The notes below the pieces were generated by a model. It searched no databases and was not told the origin of the DNA. It saw nothing but the letters and a program-made list of their open reading frames with translations. Of a stretch of 64,000 nt of DNA, positions 239 to 9,172 are shown piece after piece. The DNA comes from Clostridia bacterium (lineage in GTDB: Bacteria; Bacillota; Clostridia; Lutisporales; Lutisporaceae), in contig DASPIR010000034.1 in NCBI GenBank assembly GCA_035628995.1, forward strand, positions 186,001 through 250,000, given 5' to 3'. How positions within the stretch are numbered: position 1 is the first letter of the stretch; the number at the start of each line of letters is the position of its first letter. Made by a program: the position numbers and the translations under genes.

Positions 239-1021
239 TTAAAATATAATTCTTCCCGGGTTACTATATACATTCATCCTATGTCCGCGGGCAAAGCCGA
301 TTACCGTTATACCAAGCTGTTCTGCCAGCTCCACTGCCAAATCAGTAGGTGCTGACCTTGAAATAATAACCGGTATCCCGCCTTTAGCGGCCTTTATGAG
401 CATTTCGGAAGACACCCTGCCGCTTGTAAGCACTATCTTATCAAACAGCTTGATATTCTTCAGGGAGGCTTCCCCTATTATCTTATCCATAGCATTATGA
501 CGCCCTACGTCTTCATGGAACAATATAATGCCTGCATCAGCAGCAAGTGCCACGCTGTGAGCCCCGCCTGTACTATGGAATAGCTCTGATCTTCCATTAA
601 ATTCTCTCATAAGCTCAAGTATTGCTTGAGCGCTGATCTCAATATCGCTTGATACTTTCTTGCAGTTTATGGAATCAACCGCATTATAAAAGGCAGAGCC
701 CTTGCCGCAGCCGGTGGTCATTGTCCTCTTGCCGTGCAGGCTCTTTGCAATGATGCTGCTCTCAACTGTGCTGACCTCTATTATACCTTTTTCTTCATCT
801 ATTCGAATTTTCTCTATATCATCCTTGCTTTTTATAACACTTTCAGAAAGGAGAAACCCCACAGCCAAGCAATCAAGGCTTGAAGGCGTACAAAGCAAGG
901 TTATGAATTCCTCTCCATCCAGCATTATAGTCAGCGCATACTCTTTGACTACCATATCGACAGCCGATGATATCGTGCCGCTCTCATACTTTATTATTGA
1001 GATGTCTCTAGTCAAATCCAT
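239..1021 (-). CDS. fdhD: Formate dehydrogenase accessory sulfurtransferase FdhD
   Basis: FdhD passes sulfur from a cysteine desulfurase to the bis-MGD cofactor of formate dehydrogenase, which is needed for activity. The 260-residue length is normal. Visible motifs are the active-site loop TTGCGKGSAF with Cys105, the central TGGAHSVAL and EDVGRHNAMDK blocks, and the C-terminal ISRSAPTDLAVELA/GFARGHRMNVYS segment. Only one cysteine is present in the loop where the E. coli protein has CxxC; single-Cys versions are common in Firmicutes as far as I know. The start follows an AGGAGGTG site. It lies 10 bases after mobA and 90 bases before the formate/nitrite channel, forming a formate/molybdopterin group. 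No formate dehydrogenase structural gene is in the window. Confidence 0.93.
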   Translation of the reverse strand: MDLTRDISIIKYESGTISSAVDMVVKEYALTIMLDGEEFITLLCTPSSLDCLAVGFLLSESVIKSKDDIEKIRIDEEKGIIEVSTVESSIIAKSLHGKRTMTTGCGKGSAFYNAVDSINCKKVSSDIEISAQAILELMREFNGRSELFHSTGGAHSVALAADAGIILFHEDVGRHNAMDKIIGEASLKNIKLFDKIVLTSGRVSSEMLIKAAKGGIPVIISRSAPTDLAVELAEQLGITVIGFARGHRMNVYSNPGRIIF

Positions 1022-1031
1022 AATACACCTC

Positions 1032-1640
1032 CTATGCCTTCAAAAACCGCTCCATCAGGCTTTGATAGTCCTTAATGGTATTCACATTTGTGAACATATC
1101 CCAGTCCGGACTGAACTCCCTTGCCGCAGCCTCACTGACGTAAAGCACATTAGAATCCTGCAGCAGCAAGTTAATTTGCTTATTGCCATTTTCAATGTTC
1201 TCTTCCAGCTTTTGAAGCAAGCTTTTGGAGTAAAAAGCGTTGAAGGGCTCTATCCATTCACCCAGTCTTGTTATAACTCCATCAATCTTTCCCTCATGCT
1301 GATTTATAAGCTCCATCATGTAGTTCAGGTATTTTATGTTTATAAAGGGCATATCACAGGCTACAATATAATTATGTACGCTGCAGGAGCTTTTTAACCC
1401 TACATGTATCCCTGCCAAGGGTCCGAAGTCCTTTATCTCGTCCTCTGCCAGCTTGTATCCGTATTTCACATACTCCTCAGGCCTGCTGGTGACTATAATA
1501 ATCTCATTGAAAACCTTTTCCAGCTTTTCTGTTATCATTTCAATTATATATTTGTCACGAAGCTTGAGAAATTGTTTGTCAAAGCCCATCCTGCTGCTTT
1601 TGCCTCCGGCAAGTATTATTGCAGTTTCCATATATGCCAT
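1032..1640 (-). CDS. mobA: Molybdenum cofactor guanylyltransferase MobA
   Basis: MobA adds GMP from GTP to molybdopterin to give the guanine dinucleotide form used by formate dehydrogenase and other DMSO-reductase family enzymes. The N-terminus carries the nucleotidyltransferase signature LAGGKSSRMGFDK (about residues 10-22), followed by DFGPLAGIHVGL and CDMPF, which provides the metal-binding Asp. The length of 202 residues is typical. The start at MAYMET has GAGG 7 bases upstream; the Met at residue 4 is an alternative. It is followed by fdhD with a 10-base gap, so the two are probably co-transcribed. Confidence 0.93.
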   Translation of the reverse strand: MAYMETAIILAGGKSSRMGFDKQFLKLRDKYIIEMITEKLEKVFNEIIIVTSRPEEYVKYGYKLAEDEIKDFGPLAGIHVGLKSSCSVHNYIVACDMPFINIKYLNYMMELINQHEGKIDGVITRLGEWIEPFNAFYSKSLLQKLEENIENGNKQINLLLQDSNVLYVSEAAAREFSPDWDMFTNVNTIKDYQSLMERFLKA

Positions 1641-3489: not shown

Positions 3490-4503
3490 CTATATCCCCT
3501 TTATATCTATCACTTTACCGCATTTGGAGCATAGTCCGTCATCCAGGTGCTCTATGAAAATGCCGCCGCTTCTTTTAATCAGAAGAGCTTTGCAATTGGG
3601 ACAATATGTGTTTGTATCCTCACTCTGAAGATTGCCCACATACACATATTCCAGATTATTTGCTGCTATCTTCTTAAGATTCTTCAACGTCTCTGCGCTG
3701 GTGGGTTCCTCCTTCATCTTGTACATAGGAAAGTAGCGGGATAGATGAAGTGGAATTGAGGGCTTAATAGATGCAAGCCATCTCGAAAGCTCATCCATCT
3801 CCTTTTCGCTGTCATTGCGACCCGGGACAACGAGAGTGGTGATCTCCACATGACATTTCGAGGCAGCAGCCTCTACAGTGCGCTTCACATATTCAAGGCT
3901 CCCTCCGCAGACATCCCGGTAATATTCCTCTGTAAAGCCCTTTACATCAATATTCATTGCATCAATATAAGGCAGCAGCTCAGATAGCGGCTTTTCACCC
4001 ATATAACCGTTGGTTACAAGTACGTTTCTATAGCCCTTGCCCTTAATGTACCTGGCAGTATCTAATACATACTCATACCAAATACTAGGCTCATTGTAAG
4101 TGTAAGCTATTCCTACACATTCCTCTTCCTGCCTGCACAAGCTAAGCAGATAGGCTTCGGAGGCTTCGTACAAGTTCCCCTCCCCTGCTTCCTCCACTGC
4201 GCCGCGCTGTGCAATGTGGTAGTTCTGGCAAAAGCTGCATCTAAAGTTGCAGCCAACAGTGCCCAAGGAAAGTATGTATTTACCGGGGAAGAAATGGTAC
4301 AGCGGCTTTTTCTCCACTGGGTCCATTGCAACAGCAGAAATCTTTCCATAATTATGAGTGTAAAGGGTGCCTTCGATATTGTTTCTTACCCTGCATATCC
4401 CATATTTTCCCGGTGCAATGGTGCATTCGTGGGGACACAGCCTGCAGACCACATTCTGCCCTTCAAGCTTTTCATAATGCATTGCTTCTTTTAATTGACC
4501 CAT
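3490..4503 (-). CDS. amrS: AmmeMemoRadiSam system radical SAM enzyme
   Basis: A 337-residue radical SAM protein with the cluster motif CNFRCSFC (Cys85, Cys89, Cys92) and an N-terminal Cys-rich segment (CRLCPHEC...GICRVR) typical of the AmmeMemoRadiSam enzyme and of pyruvate formate-lyase activase relatives. The C-terminus carries two CxxC pairs (CPNC and CSKC) likely to bind zinc or iron. It is followed directly by the MEMO-AMMECR1 fusion gene; this three-part set is widespread in anaerobes, but its reaction is still unknown to me. The ATG has GGAGTG upstream. Confidence 0.92.
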   Translation of the reverse strand: MGQLKEAMHYEKLEGQNVVCRLCPHECTIAPGKYGICRVRNNIEGTLYTHNYGKISAVAMDPVEKKPLYHFFPGKYILSLGTVGCNFRCSFCQNYHIAQRGAVEEAGEGNLYEASEAYLLSLCRQEEECVGIAYTYNEPSIWYEYVLDTARYIKGKGYRNVLVTNGYMGEKPLSELLPYIDAMNIDVKGFTEEYYRDVCGGSLEYVKRTVEAAASKCHVEITTLVVPGRNDSEKEMDELSRWLASIKPSIPLHLSRYFPMYKMKEEPTSAETLKNLKKIAANNLEYVYVGNLQSEDTNTYCPNCKALLIKRSGGIFIEHLDDGLCSKCGKVIDIKGI

Positions 4504-4522
4504 AATGTATCACTCCATATAC

Positions 4523-5884
4523 TTAATAGTGCCTTACAACCTCAAAACGTTCCATCTCATAGGCTTCTCCGCTTCTTATGCCCGCTTTCTGAAGTGAGAT
4601 ATCCACCTGATAATCAACTGTGTCTACCCCTTCAAGATTGGGAAGCAGCAAGCCAGACCTGCGTCCACTCCTTACAATCACCCCATATTTCTTCACGTCC
4701 AGCTCCTCTTTTGAGCTGATAGGCGTGGGCTCCATAAGGACATCCACAGAGTAATCCAGTTCATCAAGCTCATCTTCTTCTACAGGGGGAAACCTCGGGT
4801 CCCTGGTACCTGCGCTGACGGCATTCTGTATGATTTCCATAGCAATGCTGATAGTGGTTGGTCCTATAGTGCCGATGCAGCCTCGGAGCTCGCCGTATTT
4901 CTTGAGTGAAACAAAGACTCCCGCCCTTTCAGTGAGCATTTCAGCAGGCAAGTCTTTTGGCCCATGAATCTGCTTTCCTGTACGGACATATGTCTCTAGT
5001 GTTTCTATAGCCAACTTAACATAGGGGTCACTGCTTTTTACCGGCTTCTTGCCATCACAAGCCAAGGCATGGAGCTCTGCTATACAATAGCCTACTCCGA
5101 AAGGACCTTCGTAGGATAATATATCGCCCTTGACACTGCAGCCATCCAAACAGCCCATAAGCACCAGTGTGGAGTTGTAGCCGCACTCGCCTGCTGACTC
5201 CAAAAGCTCATCCGACATAGACATCAGCTCTTTTACTTCTCCTGACTTGATTATCTCTAAGTATTTTTCATCAAACTCTGAACCTCTGGGATCATAGCCC
5301 GCTGGAGCATCCTCTGTAAGTCTGTGTGAAAGATCGCCACTTGCTATTACAACTACTTTCCTGTCGAGCTCTGCTGCCGCATCCCTTATAGCTATGCCAA
5401 GCTTGTAATGCTGTTCTCTGGAAAGTAAGCTGTATGTGATATGTACCAGTTTGAATTCCTTATATCTCTTGCTTATGAAATAGAGGGGAACCATAGCTCC
5501 GTGGTCGAGTCCCGGTTCAAGCCCGTAGGTTTTTTTAACGTCTTCCTGCATTGGAACGCAATATGTTTTTTTCTTATCTGCCTGCTCCAATATTTTATCC
5601 ACCAATTCCAAATCATTGTCAAAGCCCAGCTTTACCCCCGCGGCTCCAAATCTTGCCAGACTCCCCTCCAGCCTTTCATCTGATGCAATGGTCATTGCAT
5701 CCTTTAGCAATGTACCATGAGGTGTGATGATGACAATTGTATCCGGCTGCATATCTGCTATATGCTCTGCAGCCTTCATGGCACCATCAATTGAGTTTTT
5801 CACCCTTCCGGTTTCCTCCTTCCCCACTTCCTCAATCATTATAGGTGGATGAGGAAAAATGAATGCACCCGCTATATTGCCCAT
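4523..5884 (-). CDS. MEMO-like / AMMECR1 fusion (AmmeMemoRadiSam proteins B and A)
   Basis: This 453-residue protein joins two partners of the AmmeMemoRadiSam set. Residues 1 to about 265 are MEMO-like, a fold related to extradiol dioxygenases, with FPHPPIMIEEVG, the TPHG segment, GLDHGAMVPLYF and ASGDLSH supplying candidate metal-binding His residues. About 280-450 is AMMECR1 (GVFVSLKKYGELRGCIGTI, RDPRFPPVEEDEL). The fusion implies that A and B act together, with the adjacent radical SAM enzyme as third component. The start chosen has GAAGGAG 8 bases upstream; a TTG six codons earlier overlaps that site. The true substrate is unknown. Confidence 0.92.
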   Translation of the reverse strand: MGNIAGAFIFPHPPIMIEEVGKEETGRVKNSIDGAMKAAEHIADMQPDTIVIITPHGTLLKDAMTIASDERLEGSLARFGAAGVKLGFDNDLELVDKILEQADKKKTYCVPMQEDVKKTYGLEPGLDHGAMVPLYFISKRYKEFKLVHITYSLLSREQHYKLGIAIRDAAAELDRKVVVIASGDLSHRLTEDAPAGYDPRGSEFDEKYLEIIKSGEVKELMSMSDELLESAGECGYNSTLVLMGCLDGCSVKGDILSYEGPFGVGYCIAELHALACDGKKPVKSSDPYVKLAIETLETYVRTGKQIHGPKDLPAEMLTERAGVFVSLKKYGELRGCIGTIGPTTISIAMEIIQNAVSAGTRDPRFPPVEEDELDELDYSVDVLMEPTPISSKEELDVKKYGVIVRSGRRSGLLLPNLEGVDTVDYQVDISLQKAGIRSGEAYEMERFEVVRHY

Positions 5885-5980
5885 ATTCTGCACTCCTTCC
5901 AATACTTCTGAGTTTTAATATTGGTATGTTCCCCTGCTTGGCAGCGATTAATTCGTAACCATTCCAGAAAATAGATTATG

Positions 5981-8811: not shown

Positions 8812-8850
8812 AAAAAATTAAACACCAGATTCCTGGTGTTTAATTTTTTT
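8812..8850. terminator. Strong bidirectional hairpin terminator between the NDH-2 and Mop genes
   Basis: A perfect 17-base-pair stem (8812-8828 with 8833-8849) around a 4-base loop ATTC, with A-run and T-run at the two ends. It is a second, stronger stop downstream of 8692 and isolates the Mop-like gene. Confidence 0.85.
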
Positions 8851-8919
8851 GCTTTTATTTGGGAATAATATATATAAGCTTTGCTATAAGAAAATCAATG
8901 TTTTAAGGAGTGAATTATT

Positions 8920-9138
8920 ATGGAAGCAGGAGTAAGAAATAAAGTAACCGGTGAAATTGAGGAGATAAAATCCGATGAAATCATGGCAGAGGTCAAGATG
9001 AGGGGCACATGAAACGACAATACAATGAGATTCACGTCCGTGATGACGAGAGAAAGCCTTGACGATGCTGGTTTTAAAAAAGGCGACACAGTTGAAGCTT
9101 TAGTTAAAGCAATAAATGTAGTATTTGTGAAACATTAA
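8920..9138 (+). CDS. Mop/TOBE-domain molybdate-binding protein with an in-frame UGA (candidate selenoprotein)
   Basis: An ATG at 8920 with AAGGAG 8-9 bases upstream opens a frame encoding MEAGVRNKVTGEIEEIKSDE...VKMRGT. It meets UGA as codon 31 (9010-9012), then continues in the same frame as NDNTMRFTSVMTRESLDDAGF...VEALVKAINVVFVKH to TAA at 9136. The two halves together make one full molbindin-like TOBE domain of 72 residues, which binds molybdate or tungstate. Either UGA is read as selenocysteine or this is a fresh nonsense mutation. Short stems follow the UGA: 9032-9035 with 9040-9043, or alternatively 9035-9038 with 9045-9048 plus a mismatch-separated extension. Both put a G-containing loop 24-27 bases downstream, within the usual bacterial SECIS range, but they are weak. 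Formate and molybdenum genes nearby fit a genome that uses selenocysteine. Confidence 0.6.
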
Positions 9139-9172
9139 TAATAGCCGGAGCTTAATATCTCCGGCTATTATT
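9137..9172. terminator. Bidirectional terminator between the Mop gene and helD
   Basis: A perfect 14-base-pair stem (9137-9150 with 9159-9172), loop of 8, with the GC core GCCGGAG and AT-rich ends. It begins inside the TAA stop of the Mop gene and also lies just beyond the end of the convergent helicase gene. Confidence 0.85.

Follow-up and report, generated by a model that had tools for sequence, protein, structure and literature searches.

A probable selenocysteine-containing molbindin encoded through a conserved in-frame UGA codon in anaerobic Bacillota

A small gene within a 64,000-nucleotide stretch of clostridial DNA, hereafter termed the window, encodes with high probability a molbindin (Mop/TOBE protein) that contains selenocysteine (Sec), and belongs to a previously unlisted selenoprotein family of dozens of anaerobes, here termed Sec-Mop. 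Computational analysis establishes the recoding of the UGA codon, the presence of the decoding machinery, an RNA signal, purifying selection and the molbindin fold. Incorporation of Sec at UGA31 is close to certain on these grounds, in the absence of peptide or 75Se data, while the identity of the gene as a whole is asserted with slightly more reserve, with peptide, 75Se and metal data all lacking.

The open reading frame (ORF) occupies positions 8920..9138 of the forward strand, begins with ATG and ends with TAA (9136-9138), and its sole internal stop is the TGA at codon 31 (9010..9012, +), which is predicted to specify Sec based on the sequence and on the conservation of this TGA in relatives. 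The translation, MEAGVRNKVTGEIEEIKSDEIMAEVKMRGT-U-NDNTMRFTSVMTRESLDDAGFKKGDTVEALVKAINVVFVKH, comprises 72 residues with U31 and is assigned to the AGVRN clade of Mop/TOBE proteins by Pfam TOBE, homologues, an AlphaFold2 (AF2) model and fold matches in the PDB. An AAGGAG ribosome-binding site (8905..8910, +) is located 9 nt 5' of the ATG, and similar sites precede the homologues. Upstream, a T-tailed hairpin resembling an intrinsic terminator (8812..8849, +) separates the gene from an NADH-dehydrogenase-like gene, and directly 3' of the stop codon a perfect 11-bp inverted repeat (9140-9150 with 9159-9169; 9140..9169, +) is read from the sequence as a probable terminator, though a terminator scanner made no call on it and its T tail is weak. 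The preliminary description of an intact Mop/TOBE ORF with its own ribosome site, terminators and a UGA at codon 31 is thus confirmed from the sequence and by the Pfam TOBE match. An internal restart at Met36, which the same description had discounted, is rejected as well, given that this residue is not conserved and is not preceded by a ribosome site. Genes for the formate dehydrogenase sulfurtransferase FdhD (239..1021, -; Pfam PF02634) and for a MobA-like NTP transferase of Mo/W-cofactor guanylylation (1032..1640, -; Pfam PF12804) reside 7-9 kb upstream in the window and are mentioned as context only. The window also features an AMMECR1/LigB-Memo fusion beside a radical SAM protein, a pair of the AmmeMemoRadiSam type (3490-5902, -).

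The in-frame TGA is a recurrent property of this gene. Among 22 genomes of the same family, including the own genome, four carry the gene at a minimum identity of 70%, each with one in-frame TGA, and a scan of species genomes yielded 25 loci, with further relatives retrieved from class and phylum samples of 391 and 398 genomes, respectively. The loci of the scan include those of Clostridium ljungdahlii, C. drakei, Desulfosporosinus, Maledivibacter, Pelotomaculum, Sporotomaculum, Syntrophomonas wolfei and Clostridium sp. OS1-26, the latter with the gene in a complete chromosome. In-frame TGA is shared by C. ljungdahlii, C. drakei, Desulfosporosinus, Pelotomaculum, Syntrophomonas and others, and the TGA-bearing relatives include proteins of 86% identity as well as proteins of 60-72% identity from other families. 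Throughout the full-length relatives, which span many Bacillota genera, every internal stop is TGA and never TAA or TAG. The 34 distinct Sec genes fall into four architectures, namely U31 (n=5), U32 (n=11), U28+U32 (n=10) and U14+U28 (n=8), so that Sec is also found on strand 1 and in the middle of strand 2, and are accompanied by 12 orthologues without Sec. The ratio pN/pS amounts to 0.22-0.26 after the last UGA and to 0.18-0.34 before the first, and these low values on either side imply that both parts are maintained as protein by purifying selection. Orthologues with Cys in place of Sec are the usual, though not obligatory, hallmark of selenoproteins. None was found among the relatives examined, either in the 391 and 398 sampled genomes, by means of a profile with Cys substituted for Sec, or in the scan of species genomes. 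The Sec-less orthologues feature Q, K, R or other residues at the Sec positions, or lack the turn altogether, and none has Cys there. An alignment of clostridial homologues at position 31, proposed beforehand as a check for Cys or UGA, came out in favour of the proposal, as did the other suggested checks that could be run: the TGA is conserved. The one difference is that homologues without it are devoid of any redox residue.

The genome that harbours the window is equipped for Sec insertion. A model search detected SelB with 372 bits against a cut-off of 242, selA is located immediately upstream of selB and selD precedes selA, the latter two being named from the ORF sequences beside selB without a model, while a tRNA-Sec with the anticodon UCA is encoded approximately 16 kb from this cluster on the same contig. 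Thus, the sel genes whose absence would have refuted the proposal are present. SelD is itself a Sec-containing protein, with the motif SSGUAAKI and the TGA at its classic place (L042:73-1110, G000:C21), and the alpha subunit of formate dehydrogenase (FDH) contains an internal TGA, which bears out the earlier supposition of a genome with a Sec-type FDH. Beyond this genome, SelB was present in all 15 genomes with Sec-Mop of the phylum sample versus 263 of 398 in the background (P=0.0017), and likewise in the nine genomes with a Sec-less orthologue (all 24 together, P 3e-5). A match to FDH with an internal TGA occurs in 24 of the 28 genomes carrying the Sec or the Sec-less form, and 16 of 18 genomes with Sec-Mop encode AOR tungstoenzymes. 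A match to the N-domain of tungsten aldehyde ferredoxin oxidoreductase with one in-frame TGA was observed separately (G435:C19:12747-13349) and may represent either an AOR with Sec or an artefact.

Downstream of the UGA, the gene contains a stretch with frozen synonymous positions. The codons of the T/A-S-V-M-T stretch read xCG TCY GTR ATG in all 34 Sec genes, with the last Thr encoded by ACG in 30 of them, while Sec-less orthologues specify nearly the same residues by ACT/ACC/ACA/AGT, TCG/TCT, GTT/GTA, ATG and ACC/ACT. A G at the third base of the codon before TCY is found in 34/34 Sec genes versus 0/12 Sec-less ones (Fisher 3e-11, uncorrected for relatedness). This sequence is predicted to form a bacterial SECIS at 9032..9051 (+), inferred from synonymous freezing, fold z-scores and pair counts, either as UCAC[GUCC]GUGA (9032-9043) or as CGUC[CGUGAU]GACG (9035-9048) with an outer UC/GA extension. 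For the first hairpin, 98.7% of cells were paired across 19 sequences, with C-G, U-G and U-A occurring at one pair and a U-A variant with the loop GUCU in C. ljungdahlii and C. drakei; for the second, the proportion was 90.4%. Both overlap on the same frozen sequence and the data favour neither, leaving the structure ambiguous. As 37-58 of 500 within-set shuffles attained a covariation score as high as the real one and hence fail to separate either hairpin from chance, the case for a SECIS rests on synonymous freezing and folding energy rather than on covariation. With regard to energy, the hairpin region exceeds its synonymous recodings in stability in each of the Sec subtypes (z -2.7, -8.2, -9.5 and -5.6), which is not the case in Sec-less orthologues (z -0.5). 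The loop G, one of the first two loop bases, lies at +24 after the TGA of the window gene, and the same distance from the last UGA is kept in three subtypes, with 21 nt in U32. The frozen codons at this spacing support a SECIS hairpin whose loop reads GUCC or GUCU, and the SECIS-like stem with a G in its loop that had been noticed after the UGA is hence upheld, including its conservation in relatives.

The subtypes with two Sec residues differ with respect to the first UGA. The U28+U32 genes possess an extra hairpin directly after UGA32 (z -5.4), which spans variable residues, is spaced from UGA28 as a SECIS would be and looks like a private SECIS for that codon. This second hairpin, 18 nt past UGA32, is built from different bases in different species (L011, L014, L018, L021, L024, L060, L063, L066). 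In the U14+U28 genes, no energy signal for an own SECIS of UGA14 was detected (z +0.7), and some members display a GGU-containing loop approximately 16 nt after this codon. In the corresponding loci (L064-L072, codons 14-27), UGA28 follows UGA14 by 42 nt and UGA14 is without a clear SECIS of its own.

Regarding its family, the read-through protein scores 27.2 bits against Pfam TOBE (gathering cut-off 22.3) with residues 6-67 of 72 covered, and it is the only TOBE match in its 3.65 Mb genome. Against the NCBIfam Mop model TIGR00638 it attains 33.9 bits, which is below the curated cut-off of 55, and Sec-Mop is therefore classed as a clade sister to Mop rather than as canonical Mop. A tree of 61 rows separates the AGVRN clade, comprising Sec and Sec-less forms, from canonical Mop with a support of 100/100. 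Therein, the U31 and U32 types each form a single group, while the short length of the protein leaves the deeper forks poorly supported. The AF2 model of the window protein is a confident barrel (pLDDT 86.9) with strands at 7-18, 22-31 and 34-43, a helix at 44-50 and strands at 57-62 and 67-71, and its best PDB matches in Foldseek are MopII, ModE, Sporomusa Mop, ModG and Tub (TM 0.70-0.74, E ~1e-3 to 1e-2, prob 1.00).

Tub, the tungstate storage protein of Eubacterium limosum (PMC11980592; PDB 9beb, 9bed, 9bjf), is similarly a single TOBE domain of about 70 residues with the same predicted fold, and its type-2 tungstate site is composed of Ser4, Arg6, Lys60 and Ala61 together with Ser40 of the neighbouring subunit (PMC11980592). 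By alignment to Tub, the window protein retains the equivalents of Arg6, Lys60 and Ala61 (Arg6, Lys63 and Ala64), whereas Ser40 is replaced by Thr43 and Ser4 by Gly4. R6, K63, A64 and T43 are invariant in the clade, but so is Gly4, and anion binding may thus differ from that of Tub. Further differences are the one or two Sec residues, the separation from canonical Mop and, in the U31, U32 and U28+U32 types, a longer turn between strands 2 and 3. The stand-alone molybdate/tungstate molbindins MopII of Clostridium pasteurianum (1gug), which is the top Foldseek match, and Mop of Sporomusa ovata (1fr3) are comparable in kind, yet share only 26-30% identity over the structural alignment, are devoid of Sec and begin with SARN/SGRN instead of AGVRN. 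Among selenoproteins linked to molybdenum or tungsten, FdhA employs Sec as a metal ligand (PMC13188914) and co-occurs in most genomes with the Sec or the Sec-less form, but it is a catalytic enzyme of unrelated fold with a UHxP motif and a pterin cofactor. The selenoprotein MoeB, a molybdopterin-synthase adenylyltransferase (Table 1 of PMC13188914), shares the link to molybdenum cofactor metabolism and is otherwise an unrelated protein that is not a metal store.

In the AF2 model, U31 is the final residue of strand 2, preceding the turn to strand 3. Since the turn between the first two strands is at 19-21, strand partners should sum to approximately 40, which would place U31 opposite residue 9, two to three positions away from Arg6; this is inferred from hairpin registry only and does not involve distances. 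The model of the U14+U28 type (pLDDT 90.4) has strands at 7-18 and 22-29, where residue 26 is the expected partner of U14 and residue 12 that of U28, so that both side chains should face one side, again by registry and without distances. By strand registry, the sites used for Sec seem to share one face of a single sheet. The suggestion that Sec is situated in the molybdate-binding region is accordingly only loosely supported: the end of strand 2 is near the anion ligands, but Sec does not occupy any of the known ligand positions.

No conserved operon surrounds the gene: of 117 neighbouring proteins, no more than 2 belong to any one NCBIfam family. At one locus (L026), its direct neighbour to one side is a ModA/permease/WtpC transporter, with a YedE selenium transporter and a cysteine desulfurase to the other, and YedE is encoded within 5 kb of the gene in four of the 23 Sec loci whose flanks were read (L010, L021, L026, L045). 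An estimate of how often this proximity would arise by chance rests on an assumed background and 18 loci and is meaningful only to an order of magnitude. At L010 (contig JAKPAR010000098), Sec-Mop resides in a sulfur/selenium cluster of YedE, cysteine desulfurase, a NifU-like scaffold and MnmA.

Based on these features, SelB and Sec-tRNA(UCA) would decode UGA31 as Sec, directed by the predicted hairpin inside the coding sequence 20-40 nt downstream of this codon, and the 72-residue product would most likely assemble as a Mop-like oligomer. The oligomer would bind molybdate or tungstate and thereby buffer the supply to Sec-type FDH and tungsten aldehyde oxidoreductases. Binding and storage of Mo/W are considered likely in view of the fold, the retained ligands, the transporter neighbour and the co-occurrence with FDH and AOR, without metal data to support them. 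As for Sec itself, it would probably add a selenolate ligand or a redox switch to the store, a preference that rests on the two subtypes in which a pair of Sec is retained at fixed sites, apparently facing the same way; any such chemical role remains speculative, however. It is equally no more than a tentative proposal that Sec coordinates or reduces the stored Mo/W, providing a selenolate-bound pool or a chaperone for Sec-dependent FDH and tungstoenzymes, with paired Sec on one barrel face as the site in two-Sec subtypes. If true, this would constitute a selenoprotein function without a Cys counterpart.

The main rival, by virtue of Sec positions that differ among subtypes and the lack of any orthologue with Cys, holds that Sec is chemically idle and that the UGA merely ties production of the Mo/W store to the selenium supply, such that metal would be stored only when Sec-FDH can be made. 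The variation in position and number of Sec (14, 28, 31, 32) within an otherwise conserved protein, the orthologues with neither Sec nor Cys, and the frequent presence of TGA-containing FDH in the same genomes would all fit. Nevertheless, one UGA would suffice for this purpose, while two subtypes retain two; the apparent location of Sec on one face of the sheet points to a shared chemical site; and the ungated Sec-less form is also present in genomes with Sec-FDH. On balance, this explanation is considered rather unlikely. Alternatively, the fold might have been reused for a selenol reductase or a selenium carrier at the expense of Mo/W binding, as the clade-wide replacement of Tub Ser4 by Gly4, the resemblance of U-VGG-U to a two-selenol motif and the four loci with nearby YedE could suggest. 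This appears improbable, since the remaining anion-site residues are invariant, a Cys partner is absent, the single-Sec types are without a resolving residue, and the L026 locus adjoins a Mo/W transporter. A pseudogene, an assembly error or an ordinary premature stop arising by mutation of a sense codon, which a single TGA in a single draft genome would resemble, is ruled out by the recurrence of the TGA in genomes independent of one another, one of them a complete chromosome, by purifying selection after the TGA and by the RNA element. The frame would be open under any code reading UGA as sense, but decoding as Trp or another residue by recoding or suppression is considered very improbable in view of Sec-less orthologues without Trp at the site, the UGAs in the SelD and FDH of the same genome, which point to Sec use, the hairpin and the association with SelB, and the termination of 4 of 45 window ORFs of at least 200 aa in TGA (a mechanical, uncurated count), which indicates that UGA is not globally reassigned.

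The assumption that Sec had not been described in a molbindin holds against the sources consulted: among the 119 prokaryotic selenoprotein families inventoried in 2026 (PMC13188914; with the families of Haft et al. as given there), none is listed as Mop, TOBE or molbindin, and NCBIfam 20.0 contains no fitting model for the Sec-Mop family. No such selenoprotein appears in the retrieved passages of a 2022 review (PMC9312934) and of the deep-Sep paper (PMC12013277), and a full-text literature search joining molbindin/TOBE with selenoprotein, which included selenoproteome papers of 2016, 2022, 2025 and 2026 and excluded subscription papers, returned nothing relevant. Without Cys counterparts, the family departs from the rule behind most selenoprotein searches, which would consequently miss Sec-Mop, and the gene has presumably been overlooked or entered as a truncated fragment, its annotation status being unchecked. 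The family is widespread; its hosts include acetogens, sulfate reducers and syntrophs that have been studied well, culturable ones make it testable at once, and it would link selenium directly to the storage of molybdenum and tungsten instead of catalysis. Finally, within a set of five genomes (G016, G498, G537, G585, G554), Sec-Mop and canonical Mop occur together in some and two Sec-Mops are present in G554, which suggests a division of labour.
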